In this document: positions 20,337 through 31,736 of the stretch, in pieces
Numbering within the stretch: position 1 is the first letter of the stretch
Layout of the letters: every line of letters starts with the position of its first letter
Assembly: GCA_017437045.1 (NCBI GenBank)
Contig: JAFSBY010000020.1
Coordinates: forward strand, 1 to 39,696
DNA: 39,696 nucleotides
Direction of reading: 5' to 3'
DNA from: Alistipes sp.
GTDB taxonomy: Bacteria > Bacteroidota > Bacteroidia > Bacteroidales > Rikenellaceae
The notes under the pieces: generated by a model
Database searches by the model: none
What the model was told of the DNA's origin: nothing
The model's input: the letters and a program-made list of their open reading frames with translations, nothing else
Program-made: the position numbers and the translations under genes

Positions 20337-20407
20337 TGAACTGTGGTGTAATGGTAACACAGCAGATTTTGGTTCTGTCGTTCTGGGTTCGAGTCCCGGC
20401 AGTTCAA
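20337..20407 (+). tRNA. tRNA-Gln (anticodon UUG)
   Basis: The acceptor arms TGAACTG and CAGTTCA pair fully. The D-arm region is GTGGTGTAATGGTAACAC. The anticodon stem GCAGA/TCTGT encloses loop TTTTGGT, with TTG at positions 34-36. The T arm is CTGGG-TTCGAGT-CCCGG. The discriminator is A and the 3' CCA is not encoded. It has its own promoter and terminator and stands directly before the RyR/TIR gene island. Confidence 0.97.
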
Positions 20408-20460
20408 CGATCACCGCAGCCGAGAGGCAATGAGGTGATGCACGAAGTGCAAAAACAAAA

Positions 20461-20546: not shown

Positions 20547-20644
20547 GCGCCACCGATCGAAACGCCTCTTTGCATCGTAAAGAGGCGTAACCTCATCCAC
20601 CTTGACATAACGCCCCAAGCCTCTTTTTTTTGGTTAGACCTGTC
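20547..20644. repeat. Direct repeat copy 1 (about 98 bp) with internal hairpin
   Basis: It begins GCGCCACCGATCGAAACG and recurs almost unchanged at 20690. Inside is a perfect 9-bp stem CGCCTCTTT (20563-20571) / AAAGAGGCG (20579-20587), and near the end a run of eight Ts after CCAAGCCTC. It is non-coding and may be part of a dispersed element with terminator ability. Confidence 0.8.
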
Positions 20645-20689: not shown

Positions 20690-20788
20690 GCGCCACCGAT
20701 CGAAACGCCTCTTTGCATCGTAAAGAGGCGTAACCTCACCCACCTTGACCTAACGCCCCAAGCCTCTTTTTTTTGGTTTAGGCCTGTC
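20690..20788. repeat. Direct repeat copy 2 (about 99 bp)
   Basis: This copy is offset by 143 bases from copy 1, with only two substitutions in the body (TCATCC/TCACCC and GACATA/GACCTA) and small changes at the right edge. The inner hairpin and T-run are preserved. The 45 bases between the copies are unrelated to the repeat. Confidence 0.8.
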
Positions 20789-20803: not shown

Positions 20804-20835
20804 TTTGGTGTTTTTGCGACTTTATGCTATCTTTG
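20804..20835 (+). promoter_or_regulatory. Promoter of the RyR/TIR island
   Basis: TTTG (20804-20807), 20 bases, TATCTTTG (20828-20835), 33 bases before the channel gene ATG. No comparably good promoter is seen in the later gaps of the island, so it may drive all eight genes. Confidence 0.75.
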
Positions 20836-20868: not shown

Positions 20869-23433
20869 ATGACTTGTGAGACGATTGAGAAAATTGATCC
20901 TGTGATGTGGATTGTCACCATAGTGGCTTTATGTGTTGTCGGAGGCAGCATCTATCTTTGGTGCATCAAAGCCAAACAGCGTGATCGGTGGATGACCAAG
21001 GAGTGGGCTTTTTTGGGGAATATCGCCTTTACCATCTTCAGCATATTGCTCCTGCTGAGCTGCATCTCCATGTGGATCAAGACCCTGTATGGAACTTTCC
21101 TCTATAGCGAAGAGCAAACTGCTATACAGCAATCGCTCCCCCAAGAAGATGCCTCATGGCACCACTCGCTAAAAGATAATTTCTGGAGCGTTTACTACCA
21201 TTTTGTCGATCCGGGAAACCAGGATCGTGCCTCACAACAAGGAGGCCGTCTCTTTGCCGGCATTGTTGCCCTGCTGGGTATCTTCTCGCTCAATGGGCTG
21301 TTAGTCAGCGGCTTGATATCGGCCATCGACCGCCGCAAGGAGCGTTGGATGAAGGGCGAGGTGCGCTACAAACGCCTCAAAAACCATATCGTCATCATCG
21401 GAGGCCATGCCATGGTGCCCGACATCTGCAAAGAGTTGTTTGAGAATGCCGGCTCCTCGCCGAGGAGCATTCTGATCCAAACCAAAGGGTCGGTCGAGGA
21501 GTTGCGCGCTGCCCTGCTCTCGACCCTGACACCCCAACAAGAGGCGCGCGTCATCATCTACTACGGCGATCGCACCCGCCGCAACGATATCGAAGACCTA
21601 CGCCTCGACAAGGCGCAGAAGGTTTATCTGATCGGCGAGGATAGCTCGATCGACGGCAAGGATCACGACACCTACAACATGACGGCTCTCAATCTGCTGA
21701 TCGAGCAACTGCCCGAGAATCGACCCGAACCCCTGGAGGTCTATGTGATGTTTGAGTACCAAACCACCTTTTCGGTCTTCCAATTCTCGGATATCGCCGC
21801 CGCGGCCTACGATAAGATCGACTTCCGCCCCTTCAACTATTATGAAATGTGGGCCCAAAAGATCTTCGCACATGCCGACCCGACCCATCTGATCGAGCCC
21901 GTCAATCGGTCACAGGGTGAATGTCGTTACCCCGAGTACCTGCCTCTCGACACGATTGATGCTGAAAAAGACACATATATCGGGGCCGATTCACCCGAGC
22001 ATGTCCATTTAGTGGTGATAGGCATGAGCCAAATGGGTGTTACGCTCGCCCTCGAGGCGGCACATATCGCCCACTACCCCAACGCCCGCACCCCTCAAGG
22101 ACCGCGCACACGCATCACCTTCATCGACCCCGAAGCTGACCGCGAATCGGGCTATCTGATGCGTCGCTACCACGATCTGTTCCAATTGGCGCGTTGGCGT
22201 TATGTCGATGCCGCACACTGCGCATCGTCGCTCTATGCCGACTTTGATGCGGCGAACGACACGTGGCACGATCCGTTGCATAAAGACAACTCCACATCGC
22301 CCTATAAGCAGGTACAGTTGAGTGCAAGCGAGCCGAATAACGACCCTGCGCAAGGAGAGGATGGCCGCGAATTTTTCATCGACATCGAGTGGGAGTTTAT
22401 CAAGGGCGGCATGAACGATCGGGCCGTCTATGATTACTTAGCTACGTGTGCCAACCATCCCCACAAGCGGCTGACCGTAGCCGTCTGCCTCGAGGAGAGC
22501 CACCAAGCCATTGCTGCCGGCCTCTACCTGCCCGAGGCGGTCTATGAGCAGGTCAACCAGGTGCTGGTCTATCAGCGACAAGCCGATGCCATCATCAGCA
22601 ATCTTACGACCAACGGAGGGAACACCCGTTACCAGAAGGTGAAACCCTTCGGCATGTTCTCGCTCAGCTGCGATCTGCTCTTCGACAACGACGACATTGC
22701 CCGACTGATCAACTACGTGTATTCTACAGGTGGTGACCCGACGTTGAGTGGCAGCACCCCGGAAGCGATTAAGAAAGCCTGGAAGGATATGCTGACATTT
22801 GAGAATGGCAAATCGGGCGCGGCACGTCGTTGGTCGAATATCTACCATGCCAATGCCGTGCGCACCAAGCTGCGCAGTGCCGGTTGGAAACCGGTACACA
22901 GCGATAGCTGGGAGCCGGGGAACCCGTGTCTGTTTAAGATAGACAAATACACCATCCGCAATCTCGCCATTGCCGAGCACAATCGTTGGAATGTCGAACA
23001 ACTCTTGATGCACTATCGTCCCCTCACGCAAGACGAACAGGACAAGGTAAAAATGCGTTTTGACAACTACCAACAAACTTTTGACAACTACCAACAAGCT
23101 AAAACTCACAACGAGAAGAGTGACCCAACACAGATTGATCAAAAAAACTGGGAGAAGAAATGTCTATCCTACAAAAAACAGGTGTTCAAACAGTTCTTCA
23201 AAGACTATAAGAACGACCTGAAACGCCAGATGCACCACCCCGACCTCTGCTCCTATCAGCGTGTGGCCGAGATCGACGACACCCAACATTACGACCAAAA
23301 TTTAGCGCGTGCCCTACCCTACATTGTCCACCGCATCAATGCCAAAAGAACGGGACAGATCCAGTCGATTGGAGAGAGAACAAAAGAAGAGATTGCTTGT
23401 CATAATAAAGGGGCAGAAAATGCTTGTTTCTAA
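20869..23433 (+). CDS. CASTOR/POLLUX-like RCK ion channel with C-terminal RyR domain
   Basis: An 854-residue inner-membrane protein. Hydrophobic segments lie at about 12-33, 46-70 and 125-152. Before the third is a pore-loop-like stretch (DNFWSVYYHFVDPGNQ, about 103-118), then a basic segment (RRKERWMKGEVRYKRLKNH), which is the layout of plant CASTOR/POLLUX channels (a filter near ADSGNHAE, then an arginine/lysine-rich linker to an RCK domain). A first RCK Rossmann unit starts at IVIIGGH (174-180) and a second at LVVIGMSQMG (381-390). The C-terminus (about 699-820) looks like a ryanodine-receptor RyR domain with an insertion: AEHNRWNVEQLL, HHPDLCSYQRVAEID, then HYDQNLARALPYIV. RCK domains gate channels by ligand binding; the ligand and the ion are unknown. 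A 21-base tandem duplication (23058-23099) repeats FDNYQQ. It is the first gene of an eight-gene island. Confidence 0.65.
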   Translation: MTCETIEKIDPVMWIVTIVALCVVGGSIYLWCIKAKQRDRWMTKEWAFLGNIAFTIFSILLLLSCISMWIKTLYGTFLYSEEQTAIQQSLPQEDASWHHSLKDNFWSVYYHFVDPGNQDRASQQGGRLFAGIVALLGIFSLNGLLVSGLISAIDRRKERWMKGEVRYKRLKNHIVIIGGHAMVPDICKELFENAGSSPRSILIQTKGSVEELRAALLSTLTPQQEARVIIYYGDRTRRNDIEDLRLDKAQKVYLIGEDSSIDGKDHDTYNMTALNLLIEQLPENRPEPLEVYVMFEYQTTFSVFQFSDIAAAAYDKIDFRPFNYYEMWAQKIFAHADPTHLIEPVNRSQGECRYPEYLPLDTIDAEKDTYIGADSPEHVHLVVIGMSQMGVTLALEAAHIAHYPNARTPQGPRTRITFIDPEADRESGYLMRRYHDLFQLARWRYVDAAHCASSLYADFDAANDTWHDPLHKDNSTSPYKQVQLSASEPNNDPAQGEDGREFFIDIEWEFIKGGMNDRAVYDYLATCANHPHKRLTVAVCLEESHQAIAAGLYLPEAVYEQVNQVLVYQRQADAIISNLTTNGGNTRYQKVKPFGMFSLSCDLLFDNDDIARLINYVYSTGGDPTLSGSTPEAIKKAWKDMLTFENGKSGAARRWSNIYHANAVRTKLRSAGWKPVHSDSWEPGNPCLFKIDKYTIRNLAIAEHNRWNVEQLLMHYRPLTQDEQDKVKMRFDNYQQTFDNYQQAKTHNEKSDPTQIDQKNWEKKCLSYKKQVFKQFFKDYKNDLKRQMHHPDLCSYQRVAEIDDTQHYDQNLARALPYIVHRINAKRTGQIQSIGERTKEEIACHNKGAENACF
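23058..23099. repeat. 21-bp tandem duplication inside the channel gene
   Basis: TTTTGACAACTACCAACAA plus two bases occurs twice in direct tandem (23058-23078 and 23079-23099, one mismatch), duplicating seven residues in the insertion of the RyR-like domain. It is in frame and looks recent. Confidence 0.85.
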
Positions 23434-23474
23434 TGAAACTAATGAAGCTAATAAATCTTAAAACACGATAGACC

Positions 23475-23891
23475 ATGAAAAACTACACACCCAAACCGAT
23501 TGACTTAGACAACATTATCATTGATGCCGATTTAACAGATCTCCAAGAGGCCATTGCCGAAAATGCCCACGAGATCTGGGCTCGGAATCGTCAAGCAGAA
23601 GGTTGGACATACGGCCCGGAGCGCAATGACCAGCTCAAACAAACGCCCGATATGGTCCCCTACAATGACCTGCCGGATTCGGAGAAGCAATACGATCGAG
23701 ACATGGCCATGGAGACCATCAAGTTGATCTATAAACTGGGCTATGATGTGGTAAAACGCGAAGAGACTCAGCTAAAACGTACCCTGAAGCACGACTTGCA
23801 GCACAATGAGGTTTACTCTTGTCCGGAATGCGGCAGTTCGTTCAAGAAGTTCTACGTATTCTGCCCGCAATGCGGCAAAGAGCTTAAATAG
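23475..23891 (+). CDS. RyR domain protein with C-terminal zinc ribbon
   Basis: A 138-residue soluble protein. Residues about 22-95 form one RyR (ryanodine receptor repeat) domain with the family pattern ENAHEIWARNRQAEGWTYGP, then MVPYNDLPDSEKQYDRD and the closing IKLIYKLGY. The last 25 residues are a zinc ribbon with CxxC pairs at 116/119 and 130/133. RyR domains are known from animal ryanodine receptors, where they sit on the cytoplasmic cap, and as small stand-alone proteins in Bacteroidales; their bacterial ligand is not established. It follows the RyR-tailed channel by 41 bases and resembles the last gene of the island over the same region, so it is likely a ligand-sensing or regulatory partner. 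Confidence 0.85.
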   Translation: MKNYTPKPIDLDNIIIDADLTDLQEAIAENAHEIWARNRQAEGWTYGPERNDQLKQTPDMVPYNDLPDSEKQYDRDMAMETIKLIYKLGYDVVKREETQLKRTLKHDLQHNEVYSCPECGSSFKKFYVFCPQCGKELK

Positions 23892-23922
23892 TCTCAACGC
23901 AACACGCTTATCCTGCTACTAA

Positions 23923-23951
23923 TCCGATTCGTCTTATCAAATCGGACTTTT
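23923..23951 (+). terminator. Weak terminator-like hairpin between the RyR-zinc and TIR genes
   Basis: TCCGATT (23923-23929) pairs with AATCGGA (23940-23946) around a 10-base loop, followed by CTTTT. It may reduce but probably not stop transcription into the TIR gene. Confidence 0.4.
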
Positions 23952-23983
23952 GTTCGTTACACACCCTGCATGATTGATCACCG

Positions 23984-25741
23984 ATGAATAAGAGATACGA
24001 TGTTTTTATCAGCTACCGTCGATCCTCGGCCAGCGAAGCAAATCTGATTGCCGAAAAGTTACGCGCCCGAGGCTATCGGGTCTTTTTTGATGTGGAAGAG
24101 CTCCGAGCCGGGCTATTCAATGAGCAACTCTATCGCGTGATCGAACAATGCAAGGACTTCATTGTCATTCTGCCCCCACAGGCCCTGGATCGTTGCTCGG
24201 ACCCGGAGGATTGGGTACGCAAAGAGGTCTGTCACGCCATAGCCCATCGCAAGAATATCATTCCGGTCATGTTGGCCGGATTTGAATGGCCTAAAGTCAT
24301 GCCTTTGCAGATGGAGAGTTTGTGTAATTATCAAGCTATTACCGCCTCCTCGCATGAATTTTTCGACATGGCGATGGATCGATTGGCCTCCTATCTGAAG
24401 AGCAAGAAATACCCGAAGATTCGCCTAATCGTGCGGACGATGATCACAACGCTCATCCTGCTTGTCATGCTCTGCGCTATCGTCTATGGCGCAATTCGAT
24501 ACTACGCCTTGCCCGTCGAGCGCGATACGGCCGAGAAGCTGACCATGCAGATCGGCATCCTGGATTTCACGATGAGCATGACACATAAGATTCAGCAGGA
24601 ATGGGAAGAACACCGAGCAACCGATTGGTCCGAGATGGATCGTCAGACGTTGCAGGCTGTGGAGCACGACTATCAGCAACTCATTACCTATTTGGAGAAT
24701 GACATCGCCACCCAAGAGCAGCAGCATGCTCTTTTCCAATTAGACCTCAACAACCACGAAGCCTTTTTGCTCAAATGTCGAGGCATCAGCCATGCTGAGC
24801 TGCAAGGGTTATCGCTGTCGCAACAGAAGATCTTGCAGCAGGGAAAAGCCTTGATTGCTCAACTCGCGATCAGTTTACAAGATCACACCCGGAAGCCCTC
24901 GATGGATGGCCGCATGAATCGGGAGATACAGATCATGTTCTTGTTGGGCGAGAGTGCCTATTATGAGTATTTGATCGCCTTACATGATTTTTCGAAAAAG
25001 GCCCAACAATGCGTTTGGGATTTTGCGTCCGAGTTTCAATATATGCCAACCGACTGCGACCTGCGATCCGATCTCAAAACGCTCACACGCAAATACAACC
25101 AGGTGCAAAATCAGCTCCGCGATCTGAATTGGAAGGTCAAAGAAGACACCGCAGAGGTGATGGATCAGGAGGCAGCTGCGCAACGTTCGTTGGATTCCAT
25201 GAAACAGCAATTTGTGGAGCAAGTCGAGCAGCTTTTGGCCGAAATGGAGCTTGAACCTGCGGACGATCAATGGACCCAATGGGCTAAAATTACCACCGTG
25301 GCCGGATACATGCATGTTTTTCTCGAGGAGCAGCGCAACTATCCCGACGAAGTGCCCCTCATCTCCATAGATCGGTTGCTCACTAAAATCGAGCAAATGC
25401 TCACGGTGCATGCCGCTCATTATCCGGATGCGGCAGCCTACACCCCGGCAGCAGGCCGATTCTACCAAGAATTGGCTCAAGGTCAGCAAACCACCGCGGG
25501 TGTTATGGCTATCGTATTTGGTGACGACCCGCAATACCAAACCGGCGACATCGTCATCGAACGCAACCAACAGCCCACACCCACCATTAAAGCCTTCGAG
25601 CGGGCCATCCAGCTCAACAAACAAGGGAGCGTCAGAATCTTACGCTACCAAGACAACCAATTTACCCCGATCGAGACGACAGTCGAGGCCGTTGGTGCGA
25701 AAACCGGATGGGTGGAACTCATTCCCGATCAACAAGAATAA
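23984..25741 (+). CDS. Membrane-anchored TIR protein with long coiled region and PDZ-like C-terminus
   Basis: A 585-residue protein. Residues 1-140 are a TIR domain: YDVFISYRRSS at the start, GYRVFFDVEEL (BB-loop region), and WVRKEVCHA, in which Glu81 is at the position of the catalytic Glu of NAD-cleaving TIR enzymes. A basic stretch and one transmembrane helix (about 148-172) follow. The remaining 400 residues are on the other side of the membrane: a helical, Gln/Glu-rich region, then a PDZ-like end (about 500-572) with AGVMAIVFGDDPQYQTGDIVI. The layout suggests an outside or periplasmic sensor coupled to a cytoplasmic TIR effector that consumes or converts NAD+. The opposite topology cannot be excluded. 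It lies 23 bases before an unknown gene. Confidence 0.8.
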   Translation: MNKRYDVFISYRRSSASEANLIAEKLRARGYRVFFDVEELRAGLFNEQLYRVIEQCKDFIVILPPQALDRCSDPEDWVRKEVCHAIAHRKNIIPVMLAGFEWPKVMPLQMESLCNYQAITASSHEFFDMAMDRLASYLKSKKYPKIRLIVRTMITTLILLVMLCAIVYGAIRYYALPVERDTAEKLTMQIGILDFTMSMTHKIQQEWEEHRATDWSEMDRQTLQAVEHDYQQLITYLENDIATQEQQHALFQLDLNNHEAFLLKCRGISHAELQGLSLSQQKILQQGKALIAQLAISLQDHTRKPSMDGRMNREIQIMFLLGESAYYEYLIALHDFSKKAQQCVWDFASEFQYMPTDCDLRSDLKTLTRKYNQVQNQLRDLNWKVKEDTAEVMDQEAAAQRSLDSMKQQFVEQVEQLLAEMELEPADDQWTQWAKITTVAGYMHVFLEEQRNYPDEVPLISIDRLLTKIEQMLTVHAAHYPDAAAYTPAAGRFYQELAQGQQTTAGVMAIVFGDDPQYQTGDIVIERNQQPTPTIKAFERAIQLNKQGSVRILRYQDNQFTPIETTVEAVGAKTGWVELIPDQQE

Positions 25742-25764
25742 AAAATCAATAAAAACATAACGAC

Positions 25765-26712
25765 ATGAAAACCTATCTTCACAATCGGCTCCAGCAGGAT
25801 TTTGTCAAATATTGCATCTTGTGTTCGGATGATCCGAATACAACACTATTGGCAAGTAAACTACAACAAACGATCTCGACCGAAGCCATCGAACAGGCGT
25901 TTGAGGCGACATTTGGCAGTTTGTGTGAACAATACTTCTCGTTAGACCTGCTCAAAAAAGAGGGCGAATTCTCCAACGAGCTGCCGGAGCAATTGAATCG
26001 GGAGGTCGCGGCGCAACTCATAGCCGACTATCAGGCCAAGATTGAGGCCTTTGACAAAGAGGCATTTATTCTGACGCAAATGGATCGTCTCCAGCTCACC
26101 ATCGAAGAACTTTGCTGGGGACACGGCCTGACGCCCATGCCGGAGGCACTGCGCGAGGGGCAGGCTCGTCTGCTCCAAACGGTCAAGGACTATCAAGCAC
26201 TTACCGTCACCTCTACCGACGACGACGAACTCGCCAAGCGCGAAGAGGCCGCCAAGAACATCTCCTGGTTGGAGCGATTGCAAGCAAACAACCTCGACGA
26301 TGTCATGGACTATCGCGCAGCGCTCATCCATCATACAGAGAATGCTTGCAAAGCCATGTTAAACAAACTGATAGCCGATCTATACGAGCGTATGGCCCAT
26401 CATGAAATATTCGATCGTCTCGTGCAGCACTTTGCTATCCAACTCGAGCAAGCACAACAAGCAGCCGCAACAGAGCAGACGGTACCGGAAGCATGGACTG
26501 CAGCATACGATCAGCTCATGCCGATCGACTTTTTCCATCGTCAGGTACGTACGATTAGCGACAAGCAGGCCTTCCAGATGGCCTTGTTGTTTGCCGCAGC
26601 ACGCAACGAGCAGTGGCTCATTGAGCAGGGCTATCTGCGCAATGGCGAACTGATGCTCTTCACCGCTCCCCATCCGGCCTGGGACTATCTGTTGCAGCAG
26701 ATGGCGGAGTAA
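25765..26712 (+). CDS. Unknown helical protein in the RyR/TIR island
   Basis: A 315-residue soluble, acidic, mostly helical protein with no signal peptide, membrane segment or family I recognise. It starts MKTYLHNRLQQDFVKY and ends in HPAWDYLLQQMAE. Base composition matches the GC-rich neighbours upstream rather than the AT-rich genes that follow. It sits between the membrane TIR gene (23-base gap) and the SIR2-TIR gene (30-base gap) on the same strand, so a role with the TIR protein, for example as partner or inhibitor, is possible but unproven. Confidence 0.75.
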   Translation: MKTYLHNRLQQDFVKYCILCSDDPNTTLLASKLQQTISTEAIEQAFEATFGSLCEQYFSLDLLKKEGEFSNELPEQLNREVAAQLIADYQAKIEAFDKEAFILTQMDRLQLTIEELCWGHGLTPMPEALREGQARLLQTVKDYQALTVTSTDDDELAKREEAAKNISWLERLQANNLDDVMDYRAALIHHTENACKAMLNKLIADLYERMAHHEIFDRLVQHFAIQLEQAQQAAATEQTVPEAWTAAYDQLMPIDFFHRQVRTISDKQAFQMALLFAAARNEQWLIEQGYLRNGELMLFTAPHPAWDYLLQQMAE

Positions 26713-26742
26713 ATATATATTTTCAAAATAGATCGATAGCAT

Positions 26743-28110
26743 ATGCCAAGAAGAATTATCAATAAGCCACACAAACAACTCCAGAATTTGCCCGAGTTAC
26801 ATAATTATTGGGATCAAATTTTGAATTATATTTTTAATGGCGAATATGTCCTCGTTGTGGGTAGTAATATTATTCTCAAACAAGATCTAGACCCACATGC
26901 TAACGGGGACTCGCAACAATATATACTACAAACCGTCATCGATGAACTTAAGAATGATAATATTTTATCACAGAATTATACTTGTGATTCTTTCACCCAA
27001 TTAAATGAGGATATCAATGATTTGCATAAGAAGACGGCTGCCTATTTGAGAAATTGTATAGAATACACCACAGATGACATTTCCGATGATCTGCTAAAGA
27101 TTCTAAAAACGCGTCTTTTTCGTGTTGTCATCACCACAACCATTGACCCATATTTAGAACAAGCCATGCGAGAAGTATGGGGTGATGAACTACGGGTTCT
27201 AAACATCTTTGAGGCTGAAGATCATGTAAAAGCATACAAAAACGATTATTTCGATATACCTCCAACCCTTTATTATGCATTTGGGAAAGTGGGAGAAACT
27301 CAATATGTGCTAACTGATAACGACGCGATCGAAGCTATTGATCGATGGATTACCGATAAATCACATCCCGCTTTCCGAAATTATATTAAGGATAAACGCA
27401 TGTTGGCTATTGGGTGTAAATTTGAAGATTGGTTTTTCCGTTTCTTTTGGTATGTTTTACAAGGAGACATCTCTAATCTCAAGACCGGAAATGGAGAGGT
27501 CGCTATTACCCTTGATATTGCCCATTCAGAGATCGATCAGAATCTAAATACATTTTTAAAAAGAAACAATGTTGCTGTATTCCCTAATGCCCAAGAGTTT
27601 CTGGCTAAATTAGCAAAAGACTGTGAGCAACCATTGAACGAACAGCAAATTTTTACACAACGCCGACAACAGGGTGGAATTTTTATTTCCTATGCAGCCG
27701 AAGATAAAGCAACCGCCATACGGCTATTCAATCAGCTCACAAACAGAGGGCTTAATGTTTGGATCGACGAGAAACAATTAGTCAATCAGAAGGATAATAA
27801 TTACGATCTGTGTATTCAACGAGCCATCGAACAGTGTCGTATCTTTATGCCCATTTTTAGTAAACAACTAATCATTGATTACGAAACAGGGAAGAAACGT
27901 TACTATAAAGAGAACGAATGGCGATGGGCAAATGTAGCCGAGAAAACTATCAAACCGGTAGTAATCCATGGTTACAATTGTCGGGATGAAAAGCATCAGG
28001 AAATCTGTAGTGGATATCCACACATTGCACATGCCTCCGCTGTTTTATTACACGAGGCTCCCATTGAGGAGTTAGTTCAAATATGTGAGAATATCTTAAA
28101 AGCGCACTAA
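26743..28110 (+). CDS. SIR2-like/TIR fusion protein
   Basis: A 455-residue cytoplasmic protein. Residues about 20-290 resemble the SIR2-like domains of defence proteins: VLVVGSN (36-42) at the nucleotide-loop position, RVVITTTID (127-135) where active members have TTNxD, and YYAFG (177-181) where they have KLHG. By this reading Thr133 replaces the catalytic Asn and Phe180 the catalytic His, so the SIR2 part probably does not cleave NAD but may bind a nucleotide. Residues about 312-440 are a TIR domain (GGIFISYAAED, GLNVWIDEKQL) with Glu392 (NEWRWA) at the catalytic position. It is AT-rich, unlike the previous gene, and the nSTAND gene starts 2 bases after its stop, so the two are tightly coupled. 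Confidence 0.75.
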   Translation: MPRRIINKPHKQLQNLPELHNYWDQILNYIFNGEYVLVVGSNIILKQDLDPHANGDSQQYILQTVIDELKNDNILSQNYTCDSFTQLNEDINDLHKKTAAYLRNCIEYTTDDISDDLLKILKTRLFRVVITTTIDPYLEQAMREVWGDELRVLNIFEAEDHVKAYKNDYFDIPPTLYYAFGKVGETQYVLTDNDAIEAIDRWITDKSHPAFRNYIKDKRMLAIGCKFEDWFFRFFWYVLQGDISNLKTGNGEVAITLDIAHSEIDQNLNTFLKRNNVAVFPNAQEFLAKLAKDCEQPLNEQQIFTQRRQQGGIFISYAAEDKATAIRLFNQLTNRGLNVWIDEKQLVNQKDNNYDLCIQRAIEQCRIFMPIFSKQLIIDYETGKKRYYKENEWRWANVAEKTIKPVVIHGYNCRDEKHQEICSGYPHIAHASAVLLHEAPIEELVQICENILKAH

Positions 28111-28112
28111 CC

Positions 28113-30542
28113 ATGAGCAATACAAACAGAACAAATCCATGGGTAGGTATAGCCTCTTACCAAGAGCCTACCGCATCGAACCCCACCCAACACCTATTCT
28201 GTGGTCGAGATGAAGCATCAAGAGATATATTAACAATCATTGACAATAATCTCTTCTCGATTATCTATGGAGCGACAGGCATTGGAAAAACCTCGATTCT
28301 ACAAGCTGGCGTATATCCTCGTCTCCGAAAGTTAAACTATATCCCTATCTCCATCCGATTAGGTCGAGCCGATACAAATGTAAAATTGGCCGATGCGCTT
28401 ATTGAGGCCATCAAACTGGAGATAGAGAAGCTGAATTGTAGCATAAAGCAGCCTGATGGACTACCCGAGCCTAAAGAAGAAGATCGTATATGGGCCTTCT
28501 TCAAATCATCCACGTTTTTTAACGATCGCGAAGAGCCCATATATCCAGTCATTGTATTAGATCAGCTCGAGGAAATCTTCATTCATAGGAATCAAGATGC
28601 AGCTCAACTCATGCAACAAATATACATGTTGATTGATGATACTCGGATTATCGACAACGGATCCGGATACCATGACGAAACCAACTTTCGATTTGTTGTT
28701 TCAATTCGCGAAGATTACCTCTATGCGCTTGAAGAGTGTATCGATACTCATTATTTAACCGAGATGCTTTATAGTAGATATCGCTTAGGAGCTATGACTG
28801 ATGACGAGGCTCGTTCTGTGATATTGCGCCCGGGAGAAGGTCTTTTTGCAAAGCAACACGAGGAGGATATCGTTTCTCATATTATTGCATTAGCCAAAAA
28901 CAAACAAACAAAACTAATCAATACACTACTCCTTTCTTTGATCTGTGCCAGGCTCTACGATATTATGTCGGAAACCGGAGGTTCTCTCATCTCTCCTCTT
29001 CATCTCAAAAATATTGGAGAGAATCCTCTTCAATTCTTTTACCAAGAGGCTTCGCATAAGCTTTCCGGCAAGCAACGGAAATTTATTGAACAATCTTTAG
29101 TTGATAGAGAAGGTCATCGTACTACAATTTCCAAAGACCTGTTCACACAAAAAGCAGGATGGAGCGAGACATTGGTTGAGGGACCGCATCGCCTATTAAA
29201 TATTATTCCGGCGGCCTCACACGCGGATCATTCGCCGAGAGTAGAGCTCATGCATGATATGCTTGCTTCGGCTATTCATACAAAACGGCAAAAAAAGAGA
29301 ACCCAAATATTAGATATGTTTGTTTTGTTCCCTATATATAGTGGTTCGATGATGTTATTATTAGGATCATTGATGCTATCGTGTGCGGTATCAATTACTT
29401 CTTTTCTATCAAACTTCTTCCTTATAATACCGGTCATTCCCATCTTTTATTTAGCATGTATTGGCCAGCAAAGCAAAGATAGCAAAAATTTGTTTTTTGT
29501 GCCAGTTCTCGTATATCATGTAATATTGATTTGGGTTCTGCTGTATTGGTTTCCACAACTCAGCGGAGATACAATAATCGCTTGGCACGGACTTCGTCCA
29601 TCTTCGTTAAATTTTATGCTCCACATAGGGGTAATCATTGCGATTCTGTTACTCATTCTAACATTTACCCAATTTTTCTATCAACGAAGCCAATGGAGGT
29701 TTCGTTTAAGCCCACGAGATTATATCGGCTTGCGAGCGTTGAAAAATAAGAGAAACAGAATTATCTTTATCGCTCTTACCATTGGTCTAATTCTACCAAT
29801 ACTCTGGTTCATTTTCCCTCCTCGTACCCATATTGAACAATTACGAGATAGAGCTGCTACCAATGATCCGGAAGCTTTGTGTGAATTGGGTGATTACTAC
29901 CTCCAGTACTATCCAGATTCCACAAAAGCAAAAGCGTATTATACCCAAGCAAAGGATCTTGATTATTCTGCTGCAAACGAACGATTAGCGACACTATCCG
30001 CACGATATGCAAAAGCACAGAGTACGTGGAACGAGGTCGATCATTTCACAGATCAAATACGTACTGATGTCCTAAAATATCTTTTAGACAAAGAATCAGG
30101 CAAAACTCCTGTCATCTCAAGTGCTGAGATAAAAGAACTATATGCTGACAACAATAAATGGCCAACATTTATCCAGACGTCTGACATTGAAGACGAATGT
30201 AGCGTAGGGGCTATTCGCGCATACTTTGAACGGCAAAACGATCACGAGGCCTTCATGCGTTGGACTTGCAAAAGGCATTATCCCTGGGAGATTGGATACC
30301 AGTTTCTATTAGGGGAGCATATTGAACAAGATAAAGAGCGAGCTCTTGAAATATTTTATAAATATAAAACTCATGATCTTATTATCAAACTATATCTCAG
30401 CGATTGGGAGGTCAAATCTGTGTTAGAATATATTGATGCCAACCAAGAGGAGATATTTAATGAAGAGTTTGCAGGTAACTATCCATTTATTAGTCTCGCG
30501 TATTTGTTGTTTTATTTAATAACTAAAAATCCTTCCAAATAA
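28113..30542 (+). CDS. Membrane nSTAND NTPase with Sel1/TPR-like C-terminus
   Basis: An 809-residue protein starting with the typical nSTAND1 entry (NPWVGIASYQEP, then FCGRDEAS), Walker A GATGIGKT (53-60) and Walker B IVLDQLEEIF (147-156), then the SIREDYLYAL sensor-like segment (197-206). Such STAND ATPases are switch proteins that oligomerise on sensing a trigger. Unusually, several hydrophobic helices follow (about residues 395-590, roughly six), so it is membrane-bound. Near 600-650 is a Sel1/TPR-like repeat (DPEALCELGDYYLQYY, then KAKAYYTQAKDLDY), a likely protein-contact surface. The gene is AT-rich and is coupled to the SIR2-TIR gene. It is the probable regulator or sensor of that TIR effector. 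Confidence 0.8.
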   Translation: MSNTNRTNPWVGIASYQEPTASNPTQHLFCGRDEASRDILTIIDNNLFSIIYGATGIGKTSILQAGVYPRLRKLNYIPISIRLGRADTNVKLADALIEAIKLEIEKLNCSIKQPDGLPEPKEEDRIWAFFKSSTFFNDREEPIYPVIVLDQLEEIFIHRNQDAAQLMQQIYMLIDDTRIIDNGSGYHDETNFRFVVSIREDYLYALEECIDTHYLTEMLYSRYRLGAMTDDEARSVILRPGEGLFAKQHEEDIVSHIIALAKNKQTKLINTLLLSLICARLYDIMSETGGSLISPLHLKNIGENPLQFFYQEASHKLSGKQRKFIEQSLVDREGHRTTISKDLFTQKAGWSETLVEGPHRLLNIIPAASHADHSPRVELMHDMLASAIHTKRQKKRTQILDMFVLFPIYSGSMMLLLGSLMLSCAVSITSFLSNFFLIIPVIPIFYLACIGQQSKDSKNLFFVPVLVYHVILIWVLLYWFPQLSGDTIIAWHGLRPSSLNFMLHIGVIIAILLLILTFTQFFYQRSQWRFRLSPRDYIGLRALKNKRNRIIFIALTIGLILPILWFIFPPRTHIEQLRDRAATNDPEALCELGDYYLQYYPDSTKAKAYYTQAKDLDYSAANERLATLSARYAKAQSTWNEVDHFTDQIRTDVLKYLLDKESGKTPVISSAEIKELYADNNKWPTFIQTSDIEDECSVGAIRAYFERQNDHEAFMRWTCKRHYPWEIGYQFLLGEHIEQDKERALEIFYKYKTHDLIIKLYLSDWEVKSVLEYIDANQEEIFNEEFAGNYPFISLAYLLFYLITKNPSK

Positions 30543-30574
30543 AAGATATCGTTCATGATTACGGATTATCAACT

Positions 30575-31384
30575 ATGACCGAACAACTGATGATTATTGC
30601 GGCATTGGTGCCGGCGGCAGCATTGCTCTATTTTGTATTTCGGCGCGATCGGCTCAATCGTGAGCCATTCAAAGCGTTGATCAAGGCCTTCGGGTGGGGA
30701 TGTTTAAGTGTTCCGATCTCACTGACCATCTCATTTCCGCTCCAATGGCTCGGCCTATACCCGGCCGAGGCGACCAACCTCTTCGGGGCGATAAGCATCT
30801 CCTTCTTCGGAGCTGCTATCCCCGAGGAGATCGCCAAGTTAGTCGTGTTGTGGCTCTGTCTACGCAAAAATAAATACTTCAACGAGCACATGGATGGCAT
30901 TGTCTATGCCGCTTGTGTAGCGTTGGGTTTTGCCGCCGTAGAGAATATCATGTATGTAGTCGGAAACGAAGAATCGTGGATACAAGTAGCCTTCAGTCGA
31001 GCCATCTACGCCGTACCGGGCCACTTCCTGGATGGTGTACTGATGGGTTATTTCCTCTCGCTGGCTATCTTCTCGCCCTACAAGCGCAAGCTACACATGG
31101 CCCTGGTGTTGGTAGCTCCCATCGTAGCACACGGCATCTACGATTCGATTCTCTTCACGATGGACACGATCGAAAATGTGTGGATCACAGGCATACTGAC
31201 CCAACTTTTCTATGGGTTCTGTTTCCTGCTTTGGTTCTTCGGCATTCGTCTGATGAATAAGCACTTGCAGCGCGACAGATTACGTATGGAGGCAGAGCAG
31301 GCAGCTGCAGCCTCTTCAGAGGTGGCGGACGAAATTGTCATCGCAGAGACCGCTTCGGAGCCGAACGTAGAATTTGAACAATAA
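30575..31384 (+). CDS. PrsW-family intramembrane metalloprotease
   Basis: A 269-residue multi-pass membrane protein of peptidase family M82 (CPBP clan). Conserved PrsW motifs are present: IPEEIAK (Glu84-Glu85), MDGIVYAACVALGFAAVENI with Glu123, FSRAIYAVPGHFLDG with His150 and Asp153, and IVAHGIYDS with His187. In Bacillus PrsW starts regulated proteolysis of an anti-sigma factor after stress. Here it sits among TIR and STAND genes, and substrates could be the single-pass TIR protein or the membrane STAND protein. This is inference. The last 40 residues are a charged tail. GC content returns to the local norm, in contrast to the gene before it. Confidence 0.88.
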   Translation: MTEQLMIIAALVPAAALLYFVFRRDRLNREPFKALIKAFGWGCLSVPISLTISFPLQWLGLYPAEATNLFGAISISFFGAAIPEEIAKLVVLWLCLRKNKYFNEHMDGIVYAACVALGFAAVENIMYVVGNEESWIQVAFSRAIYAVPGHFLDGVLMGYFLSLAIFSPYKRKLHMALVLVAPIVAHGIYDSILFTMDTIENVWITGILTQLFYGFCFLLWFFGIRLMNKHLQRDRLRMEAEQAAAASSEVADEIVIAETASEPNVEFEQ

Positions 31385-31396
31385 CAAAAAAGACGT

Positions 31397-31687
31397 ATGA
31401 AAAAGCATTACACGCCCCAACCGATTGACACTTCGCAGGTGGAGCTGCCGGCCGAGCTGATGGCTTTGGCCGAAGATATTGCCCACAACGTGCACGAAGT
31501 ATGGGCCAAAGGGCGCATGGATGAGGGGTGGAGCTATGGTCCCCAGCGCGACGACGAGCAGCGTCTGCACCCGGGATTAGTGCCCTACGAAGAGCTCACC
31601 GAGGCCGAGCGCGACTACGACCGTCGGACGGCCATGCAGACCCTGCGACTGATCACGCAGTTGGGATTCAAGATCAGCAAAGAGTAG
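31397..31687 (+). CDS. Small RyR domain protein
   Basis: A 96-residue protein that is almost only one RyR domain: HNVHEVWAKGRMDEGWSYGP, LVPYEELTEAERDYDRR, then LRLITQLGF. It matches residues 1-95 of the RyR-zinc protein at 23475 closely, including the KxYTPxPID start, but lacks the zinc ribbon. The gene begins 12 bases after the PrsW stop and ends the island, so RyR proteins flank the TIR/STAND/PrsW genes on both sides. The role is unknown; ligand sensing is inferred. Confidence 0.85.
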   Translation: MKKHYTPQPIDTSQVELPAELMALAEDIAHNVHEVWAKGRMDEGWSYGPQRDDEQRLHPGLVPYEELTEAERDYDRRTAMQTLRLITQLGFKISKE

Positions 31688-31701: not shown

Positions 31702-31736
31702 AGCGGCTGTCGCAACATCTCTGTTGGACAGCCGCT
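31702..31736. terminator. Terminator hairpin at the end of the island
   Basis: AGCGGCTGTC (31702-31711) pairs with GACAGCCGCT (31727-31736), and inside it CAAC pairs with GTTG. There is no clear T-tract. It separates the last island gene from the convergent lipoprotein gene and resembles the hairpin at 39227-39263. Confidence 0.6.

Follow-up and report, generated by a model that had tools for sequence, protein, structure and literature searches.

A candidate TIR-signalling operon with a putative RyR-tailed channel in an Alistipes genome

Introduction

What would a gut-type bacterium do with RyR domains, TIR proteins and a channel-like protein set side by side in one run of genes? The question is raised by an eight-gene island at positions 20869-31687 of a 39,696-nucleotide stretch of Alistipes sp. 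DNA (assembly GCA_017437045.1, contig JAFSBY010000020.1; the whole stretch is called the window below). A first-pass annotation proposed that TIR proteins make a nucleotide signal which is read by RyR domains and answered by an RyR-tailed channel. Enzymes of the TIR kind are known producers of alarm molecules derived from NAD. Our comparisons of the eight proteins with databases and related genomes modestly favour a TIR-signalling operon whose effector is a ligand-gated channel; a TIR-made ADP-ribose (ADPR)-type messenger would gate the RyR-tailed channel, probably in phage defence. The locus is timely in that passages of a 2026 preprint on phage RyDEP proteins identify the RyR domain as a pocket for cyclic ADP-ribose (cADPR) isomers in phages (PMC13232231); here, across many species, that pocket is carried by a bacterial channel with TIR genes as neighbours.

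Organisation of the island and recurrence of its core genes

All eight open reading frames (ORFs; g1 to g8) share a strand and are separated by 41, 92, 23, 30, 2, 32 and 12 bp, in the places previously annotated. According to the preprint passages, RyDEP proteins bind or cleave 2'/3'cADPR via H75, W78, H100 and D117 (PMC13232231), and the RyR features below are described relative to these residues. TM denotes transmembrane.

20869..23433, + strand: g1, 854 aa membrane protein with tandem RCK, a DMI1/CASTOR/GsuK-like gating ring and a C-terminal RyR-type domain
21208..21219, + strand: supposed filter of g1, D114-P-G-N, placed by alignment column counts (compare CASTOR)
22936..23352, + strand: C-terminal RyR-type domain of g1, with H704, W707, H790 and D809
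23475..23891, + strand: g2, RyR domain plus C-terminal zinc ribbon, with T at the place of the phosphate-binding H100 of RyDEP
23984..25741, + strand: g3, TIR (E81 kept), one TM-like segment, a helical region and a PDZ-like C-terminus
26743..28110, + strand: g5, SIR2-like half without the catalytic Asn and His, fused to TIR
31397..31687, + strand: g8, stand-alone RyR domain, with H33, W36, H58 and D75 spaced as in RyDEP

The first-pass annotation held that scattered homologues, or RyR genes never neighbouring TIR genes, would count against it. TIR, RyR and channel genes were repeatedly found together, more often than chance predicts and on a shared strand, so the genes are not a chance pile. 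A search of 295 genomes of the order found channel relatives in 26 (15 of these with E up to 1e-30) and Pfam RyR matches in 25. Within the 26 RyR/channel genomes, 15 of 49 TIR_2 matches lie no more than 10 kb from an RyR or channel gene, against 0.52 expected (P 3e-17; 13 of 43 without the island's own genome), in a count that omits G022, G073, G202 and G217 (G labels are genomes; L labels, below, are loci). N6_Mtase was used as a control in the same genomes, and by eye none of its 91 matches, some of which are pieces of one gene, falls within that distance; for this single control family the difference from TIR has a Fisher P of 3e-8. Generic defence-island clustering as the sole cause of TIR-RyR proximity was rejected on these grounds.

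We next consider 92 channel loci with an intact channel ORF: to the 80 best among 223 channel relatives were added order-level loci and the window. Rows L048-L052 (truncated or weak), L126 and L129 (contigs of L037 and L034) and L134 and L159 (no intact channel ORF) were dropped before counting. ORFs were called mechanically at 80 or 90 codons or more, whereby the small RyR genes of L197 and L211 were lost, and gene labels derive from hidden Markov models built in this analysis, not from Pfam applied per gene. A separate RyR gene is present at 55 loci and TIR at 36, followed by PrsW (15), ECF-sigma-like genes (14), M48-like genes (11, or 12 with a zinc-ribbon cross-match), nSTAND (10), a zinc-ribbon family 'c6' (10), SIR2-TIR (8) and g4 (3). 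Strand linkage is evident: 63/63 RyR genes and 58/61 TIR genes share the strand of the channel, compared with 548/970 unannotated ORFs, and the small RyR gene, where there is one, lies on the channel strand within 150 bp of the channel at 34/55 loci. The layouts closest to the island are those of L099, L140 and the same-genus L190; L099 runs channel, sigma-like, RyR, TIR, M48, c6, g4, SIR2-TIR and nSTAND before the stretch ends. The exact eight-gene set was seen in no other stretch examined, many of them cut by contig ends, and a PADLOC scan names no system.

The RyR domains could instead be sensors of adenine nucleotides or ADPR, with the channel answering the energy state and the TIR genes being mere hot-spot neighbours. 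Such a device would suit the 37/92 channel loci without a separate RyR gene and the 56/92 without TIR in the stretch examined, some but not all of which are explained by the 28/92 loci having less than 3 kb on one side. It would also suit the animal ryanodine receptor domain R12, which binds AMP-PCP according to the RyDEP preprint passages (PMC13232231). Mere neighbourhood sits poorly with the contrast between TIR and N6_Mtase, itself a common defence family, and with abutting TIR and RCK-RyR genes at 4/4 distant loci, and we judge this explanation quite improbable.

The RyR pocket

Two of the three RyR proteins that had been proposed are recognised directly by Pfam RyR PF02026, at 110.5 bits for g2 and 122.7 bits for g8 (cut-off 27.4). 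The pocket residues of g8 are spaced +3, +25 and +42, identical to RyDEP, and both residues of the RyDEP catalytic dyad (H33 and D75) are kept. In g2 the second pocket His is replaced by T, leaving the four-residue set incomplete. Across 65 non-channel RyR domains, H33, W36 and D75 (g8 numbering) are kept in 65/65, but H58 is kept in 47/51 domains without a recognised zinc ribbon and in only 1/14 with one; because its retention splits in this way, the g2 branch is a distinct RyR subtype. The four exceptions without a ribbon are proteins of 328-339 aa, three of which have an N-terminus resembling that of ribbon proteins.

The third RyR protein, g1, gave no Pfam RyR match, and its description as RyR-tailed can therefore not be demonstrated from g1 alone; support comes through its homologues. 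Pfam RyR is above cut-off in the channel relatives of L046, L204, L207, L244, L245 and L246. The score is 30.5 bits for L046, but 17.2 for L160 and 14.5 for L041, and L045, L038 and L043 have no match. When profiles of 11 channel tails and of 9 small RyR proteins were compared, the match had P 2e-5 and a probability of 77%, and the tails keep the His, Trp, His and Asp of the pocket in 90, 92, 91 and 90 of the 92 loci. Direct MAFFT alignment of the g1 tail with phage RyR proteins was out of register; the three phage proteins in it keep all four residues. Homologues, profile-profile comparison and conserved pocket residues together point to an RyR-type domain in the g1 tail.

A RyDEP-like protein with H75, W78, H100 and D117 was found in Mycobacterium phage Baudelaire (gp81; L165:2782-3192), flanked by genes annotated as phosphoribosyl pyrophosphate (PRPP) transferase and nicotinate ribosyltransferase, a setting like that of NARP1. 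Two further matches from the phage collection (57-58% RyR identity), in records labelled Bacteriophage sp., were rejected as phage proteins: judged by its genes L161 (MT836850.1) looks like a bacterial contig, carrying RyR plus channel, and L162 (MT837259.1) is probably likewise bacterial.

Since phage homologues sequester or cleave the signal according to the preprint passages (PMC13232231), and g8 keeps the catalytic dyad, the small RyR proteins might be phage-type sponges or glycosidases that guard the host from self-activation, the channel being an independent effector. The channel tail carries the same residues, however, and the close placement of small RyR and channel genes noted above suggests a joint device, so that we find this arrangement improbable. 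Within the favoured reading of a messenger-gated channel, the preprint evidence that phage RyR proteins bind 2'/3'cADPR (PMC13232231) and the presence of these residues here lend weight to the earlier idea that RyR domains read a TIR-made nucleotide, although binding by the island proteins is predicted from sequence.

The channel-like protein and its pore

The first-pass assignment of g1 as an RCK channel is refined to a tandem-RCK membrane protein nearest, among sequences of the Protein Data Bank (PDB), to plant DMI1/CASTOR channels, but the match to them is weak and the sole Pfam match is a Slo-like_RCK hit of 18.3 bits (cut-off 24). In both sequence and fold tables g1 matched RCK channels and not ryanodine receptors; rows of the fold table hardly extend into the RyR tail, and the table is no evidence against families absent from it. 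The CASTOR filter reads AD265SGNHA in the relevant passage of PMC6697748. A K+ channel was rejected by the filter, as g1 lacks TVGYG.

The pore itself can be exchanged. At L190, L194 and L048 an MscS protein (Pfam above cut-off) is followed by a shortened channel relative of 368-409 aa, which keeps the H-W-H-D tail, and then by a small RyR gene. In other parts of the phylum, RCK-RyR membrane proteins of 561-611 aa directly adjoin a TIR gene, in 4/4 such loci examined (L244-L247). Two of these, L244 and L247, come from the same genus, and L247 has a TIR ORF of just 105 aa. The three RCK-RyR channels scanned from these loci are above cut-off for both Pfam TrkA_N and RyR, and WD40-type repeats lie downstream of TIR in two. 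This two-gene unit is the simplest sign of TIR and an RyR channel acting together.

A second protein of 723-758 aa with a degenerate C-terminal RyR is found near the channel at L033:15227-17407, L084:14897-17068, L114:15381-17657 and L119:12274-14505, and a pyruvate phosphate dikinase-type ATP-binding protein adjoins the channel at L034:11695-14700. One family, f136, accounts for 20/27 RyR genomes in the phylum sample. The loci examined from the 26 other RyR genomes sampled number 7, G395 and G402 being left out. At f136 loci L241:6229-8901, L242:9437-12082 and L243:7280-9925, proteins of 881-890 aa carry a pair of RyR repeats at the C-terminus, plus an AAA-like part that does not reach the Pfam cut-off. 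No TIR was found in the 19 kb examined at these three loci, and the f136 tandem-RyR proteins are a separate use of RyR domains.

TIR proteins and accessory genes

Both TIR proteins of the first-pass annotation are above the Pfam TIR_2 cut-off, with the correction that g5 is a SIR2-like/TIR fusion. In g3, E81, which we take to be the NADase glutamate of TIR, is invariant in 11/11 aligned sequences; its PDZ-like end is below the Pfam cut-off and detected in relatives only. The N-terminal half of g5 is above cut-off for Pfam SIR2_2 and aligns with KomC (profile E 1.6e-5), at the KomC TTNYD and FHG motifs. ThsA catalysis needs N112 and H152, according to part of PMC7272460. In the SIR2-TIR proteins, the Asn of the KomC TTN is replaced (TT[TSAIC] in 7/7 covering the motif, the eighth, from L043, being cut) and the place of the catalytic His is Phe in 10/10. 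An active SIR2 NADase was accordingly rejected for g5, whose SIR2 half is probably a pseudo-enzyme, as judged from these motifs. An EW motif, taken to hold the NADase glutamate in TIRs of the g5 type, is present in 6/8 SIR2-TIR proteins, g5 included.

The remaining genes are:

25765..26712, + strand: g4, 315 aa protein, a rare accessory
28113..30542, + strand: g6, nSTAND1 NTPase, with Walker A GATGIGKTS (by eye) and five TM-like segments
30575..31384, + strand: g7, PrsW family intramembrane protease

The earlier nSTAND and PrsW assignments hold, at 82.3 bits for g6 (nSTAND1 PF20703, cut-off 27.1) and 130.1 bits for g7 (PrsW PF13367, cut-off 23.5); g7 is below the equivalog threshold of NCBIfam NF033739 (134.2 bits against 225). 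The protein that had been left without assignment, g4, has nothing above cut-off in Pfam or NCBIfam and no match in PADLOC (E up to 0.1) or PHROGs (0.001); among the 295 order genomes it is found in its own genome only, and it clusters with one ORF each in L086 and L099. The control of the channel that the first pass ascribed to these proteins fares less well. PrsW is weakened as a core part by its 15/92 loci and by the 2/15 PrsW matches near an RyR or channel gene in the 26 genomes (by eye), alongside one PrsW-RyR fusion ORF in L100. nSTAND associates more with SIR2-TIR, which it adjoins in 12/12 cases (8 channel loci and 4 from order genomes), than with the channel (10/92).

An ECF-sigma-like gene is followed by an RyR protein at L106:12140-12709, L085:12517-14221 and L193:7464-9130. 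These RyR proteins often have a zinc ribbon and an anti-sigma-factor-like N-terminus (by eye), and such pairs are a possible RyR-controlled sigma switch. The L106 sigma-like gene scores 42.2 bits in NCBIfam (cut-off 42.9).

Such genes bring in a response to envelope or ion stress as an alternative to phage defence. A membrane-anchored TIR and PrsW would be the sensors of envelope damage, and the messenger would tune ion flux; in relatives the ECF-sigma-like protein would also alter transcription. MscS and RCK pores are osmotic devices, and the TM-like segment of g3, the below-cut-off PDZ-like end of its relatives, the ECF-sigma-like genes at 14/92 loci and the M48-type peptidases at 11/92 would all be at home in a stress response. 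The domains nSTAND, SIR2 and TIR are typical of conflict systems, and a patchy distribution over 26/295 order genomes, low island GC content and the lack of RyR on the DagK contig of genus relatives (see below) are less readily accommodated. We consider a stress response unlikely, if the most serious of the alternatives.

Promoter, flanks and mobility

The island is bordered by the following features:

20337..20408, + strand: tRNA-Gln (TTG), 460 bp from the island and outside the operon
20804..20835, + strand: predicted Bacteroidales-type promoter TTTG-N20-TATCTTTG, ending 33 bp 5' of g1
31704..31736, + strand: hairpin GCGGCTGTC/GACAGCCGC 3' of g8, with a 9-bp stem and without a T-run, found by eye

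The promoter scan accepted exact matches only, with zero mismatches, to what we take to be the Bacteroidales consensus, and found 7 matches in the window against 0.41 expected. No further exact match lies within the island or anywhere downstream of 20835 to the window end; the eight genes lie behind one predicted promoter. In 1.5-kb windows the GC content of the island is 0.40-0.55 compared with 0.50-0.60 in the flanks. An 89-nt direct repeat, 98% identical, occupies 20547-20635 and 20690-20778 between tRNA-Gln and the island; direct repeats flanking the island on both sides were not found.

The integration site was compared among 12 genus relatives in the sample, in 10 of which the DagK stretch was located, two of these stretches ending within 5 kb of DagK. 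No RyR match lies on the DagK contig in any of the 10; RyR genes are present at other places in 4/12 genus relatives. DagK-PepD is conserved in 10/10 stretches, none of them with NusB, YajC or tRNA-Gln adjoining it, and a clean integration site was rejected, no empty site being definable. The island looks like one mobile operon.

Proposed mechanism

Architecture, recurrence, strand linkage, pocket residues and pore swap are observed directly; the following model is built upon them. A stimulus, probably phage infection or envelope damage, would activate the TIR proteins g3 and g5, the former a putative membrane-anchored TIR whose helical, PDZ-like part would be the sensor, and the latter a TIR whose dead SIR2-like domain may work with the nSTAND switch g6. 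Going by TIR family knowledge and the kept glutamate, these would convert NAD+ to an ADPR-type messenger, for example 2'cADPR or 3'cADPR. Binding of the messenger to the RyR tail of g1 would open the pore, with cation flux leading to growth arrest or death. The same messenger may be bound by g8, which could either act as a buffer or hydrolase, setting the threshold and resetting the system, or join the channel as a partner subunit. Finally, g2 and the PrsW protease g7 could form a regulatory branch, which in relatives would include the ECF-sigma-like protein.

Several observations weigh against this model. In the channel tails of Bacteroidales the distance from the first His to the second is 25-140 residues, and from there to the Asp 16-31 (25 and 17 in RyDEP), a longer spacing due to insertions that slightly lowers our confidence. 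The likeness of g1 to DMI1 is weak in sequence, its fold matches include K+ channels, and the membrane part of its structure model has low confidence. Two of the 8 SIR2-TIR proteins lack the EW motif. Alongside the loci without a separate RyR gene or TIR counted above, the stretches examined around the RyR genes of G073, G106 and G107 contain no TIR and no channel, the G107 gene lying at a contig end. The preprint passages add that one RyDEP protein cleaved its ligand and 6/8 homologues tested bound without cleavage, which makes RyR-type residues no predictor of cleavage, and the AMP-PCP bound by animal R12 indicates that the messenger need not be 2'/3'cADPR (PMC13232231).

The recurrent TIR-RyR-channel pairing suggests a bacterial version of a cADPR-to-channel signal. 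A direct action of cADPR on ryanodine receptors has long been debated. More tentatively, a TIR-made cADPR isomer might gate a DMI1-like cation (possibly Ca2+) channel via the RyR domain as an immune effector with a swappable pore (MscS), phage RyDEP might be captured copies of a host receptor, and the animal R12 pocket might share its origin with a bacterial immune-signal receptor; we hold this wider proposal to be possible rather than likely. If true, ligand-gated ion channels would join the effectors of TIR signalling and phage RyR proteins would gain a plausible host source. With such small bacterial proteins, messenger, receptor and pore can each be put to the test.

Comparison with known systems

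No bacterial TIR-RyR-channel operon is described, by title or opening abstract, among the matches listed, in a literature search light on subscription papers. The only close paper among them is the RyDEP preprint, whose passages treat phage proteins (PMC13232231); a term search of PMC9503650 returned no mention of RyR. PADLOC and NCBIfam gave no named defence system for the eight proteins, only partial TIR, SIR2 or fold-level matches: partial TIR/SIR2 stretches in g3 and g5 and weak REase_II (g2) and AbiLi (g6) matches in PADLOC.

Like Thoeris, the island pairs a TIR protein with an adjacent effector that would read an ADPR-type messenger, and neighbouring TIRs of relatives (L098, L136 and L244-L246) match Pfam ThsB_TIR above cut-off. 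The effector here is instead an RyR-tailed channel, and none of the eight proteins matches ThsA (SIR2-SLOG) in Pfam, PADLOC or NCBIfam at E up to 0.1, which excludes Thoeris type I. The SIR2 NADase KomC shares its SIR2 fold with the N-terminal half of g5, which lacks the catalytic Asn and His.

For the channel, GsuK and MthK have the same RCK-gated two-TM pore as g1, which differs in having no TVGYG K+ filter; structure titles record GsuK with NAD and ADP. The plant channels DMI1/CASTOR/POLLUX have about 10% identity to g1 in the fold alignment. Among RyR proteins, g8 is close to the stand-alone bacterial 'putative ryanodine receptor' of PDB 3nrt/4n05 (E 3.5e-35), a B. thetaiotaomicron protein according to preprint passages (PMC13232231), and it matches RyR1, RyR2 and RyR3 chains. 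The preprint passages likewise have R12 sharing ligand residues with RyDEP (PMC13232231); animal ryanodine receptors differ in their channel part, that of g1 matching RCK channels. RyDEP has the same PF02026 domain and pocket but is described in those passages as a phage counter-defence protein within a NARP1 operon (PMC13232231), whereas the domain here is host-borne, on a channel and in a TIR operon. Set against these systems, the island is best described as TIR nucleotide signalling with an unusual effector.

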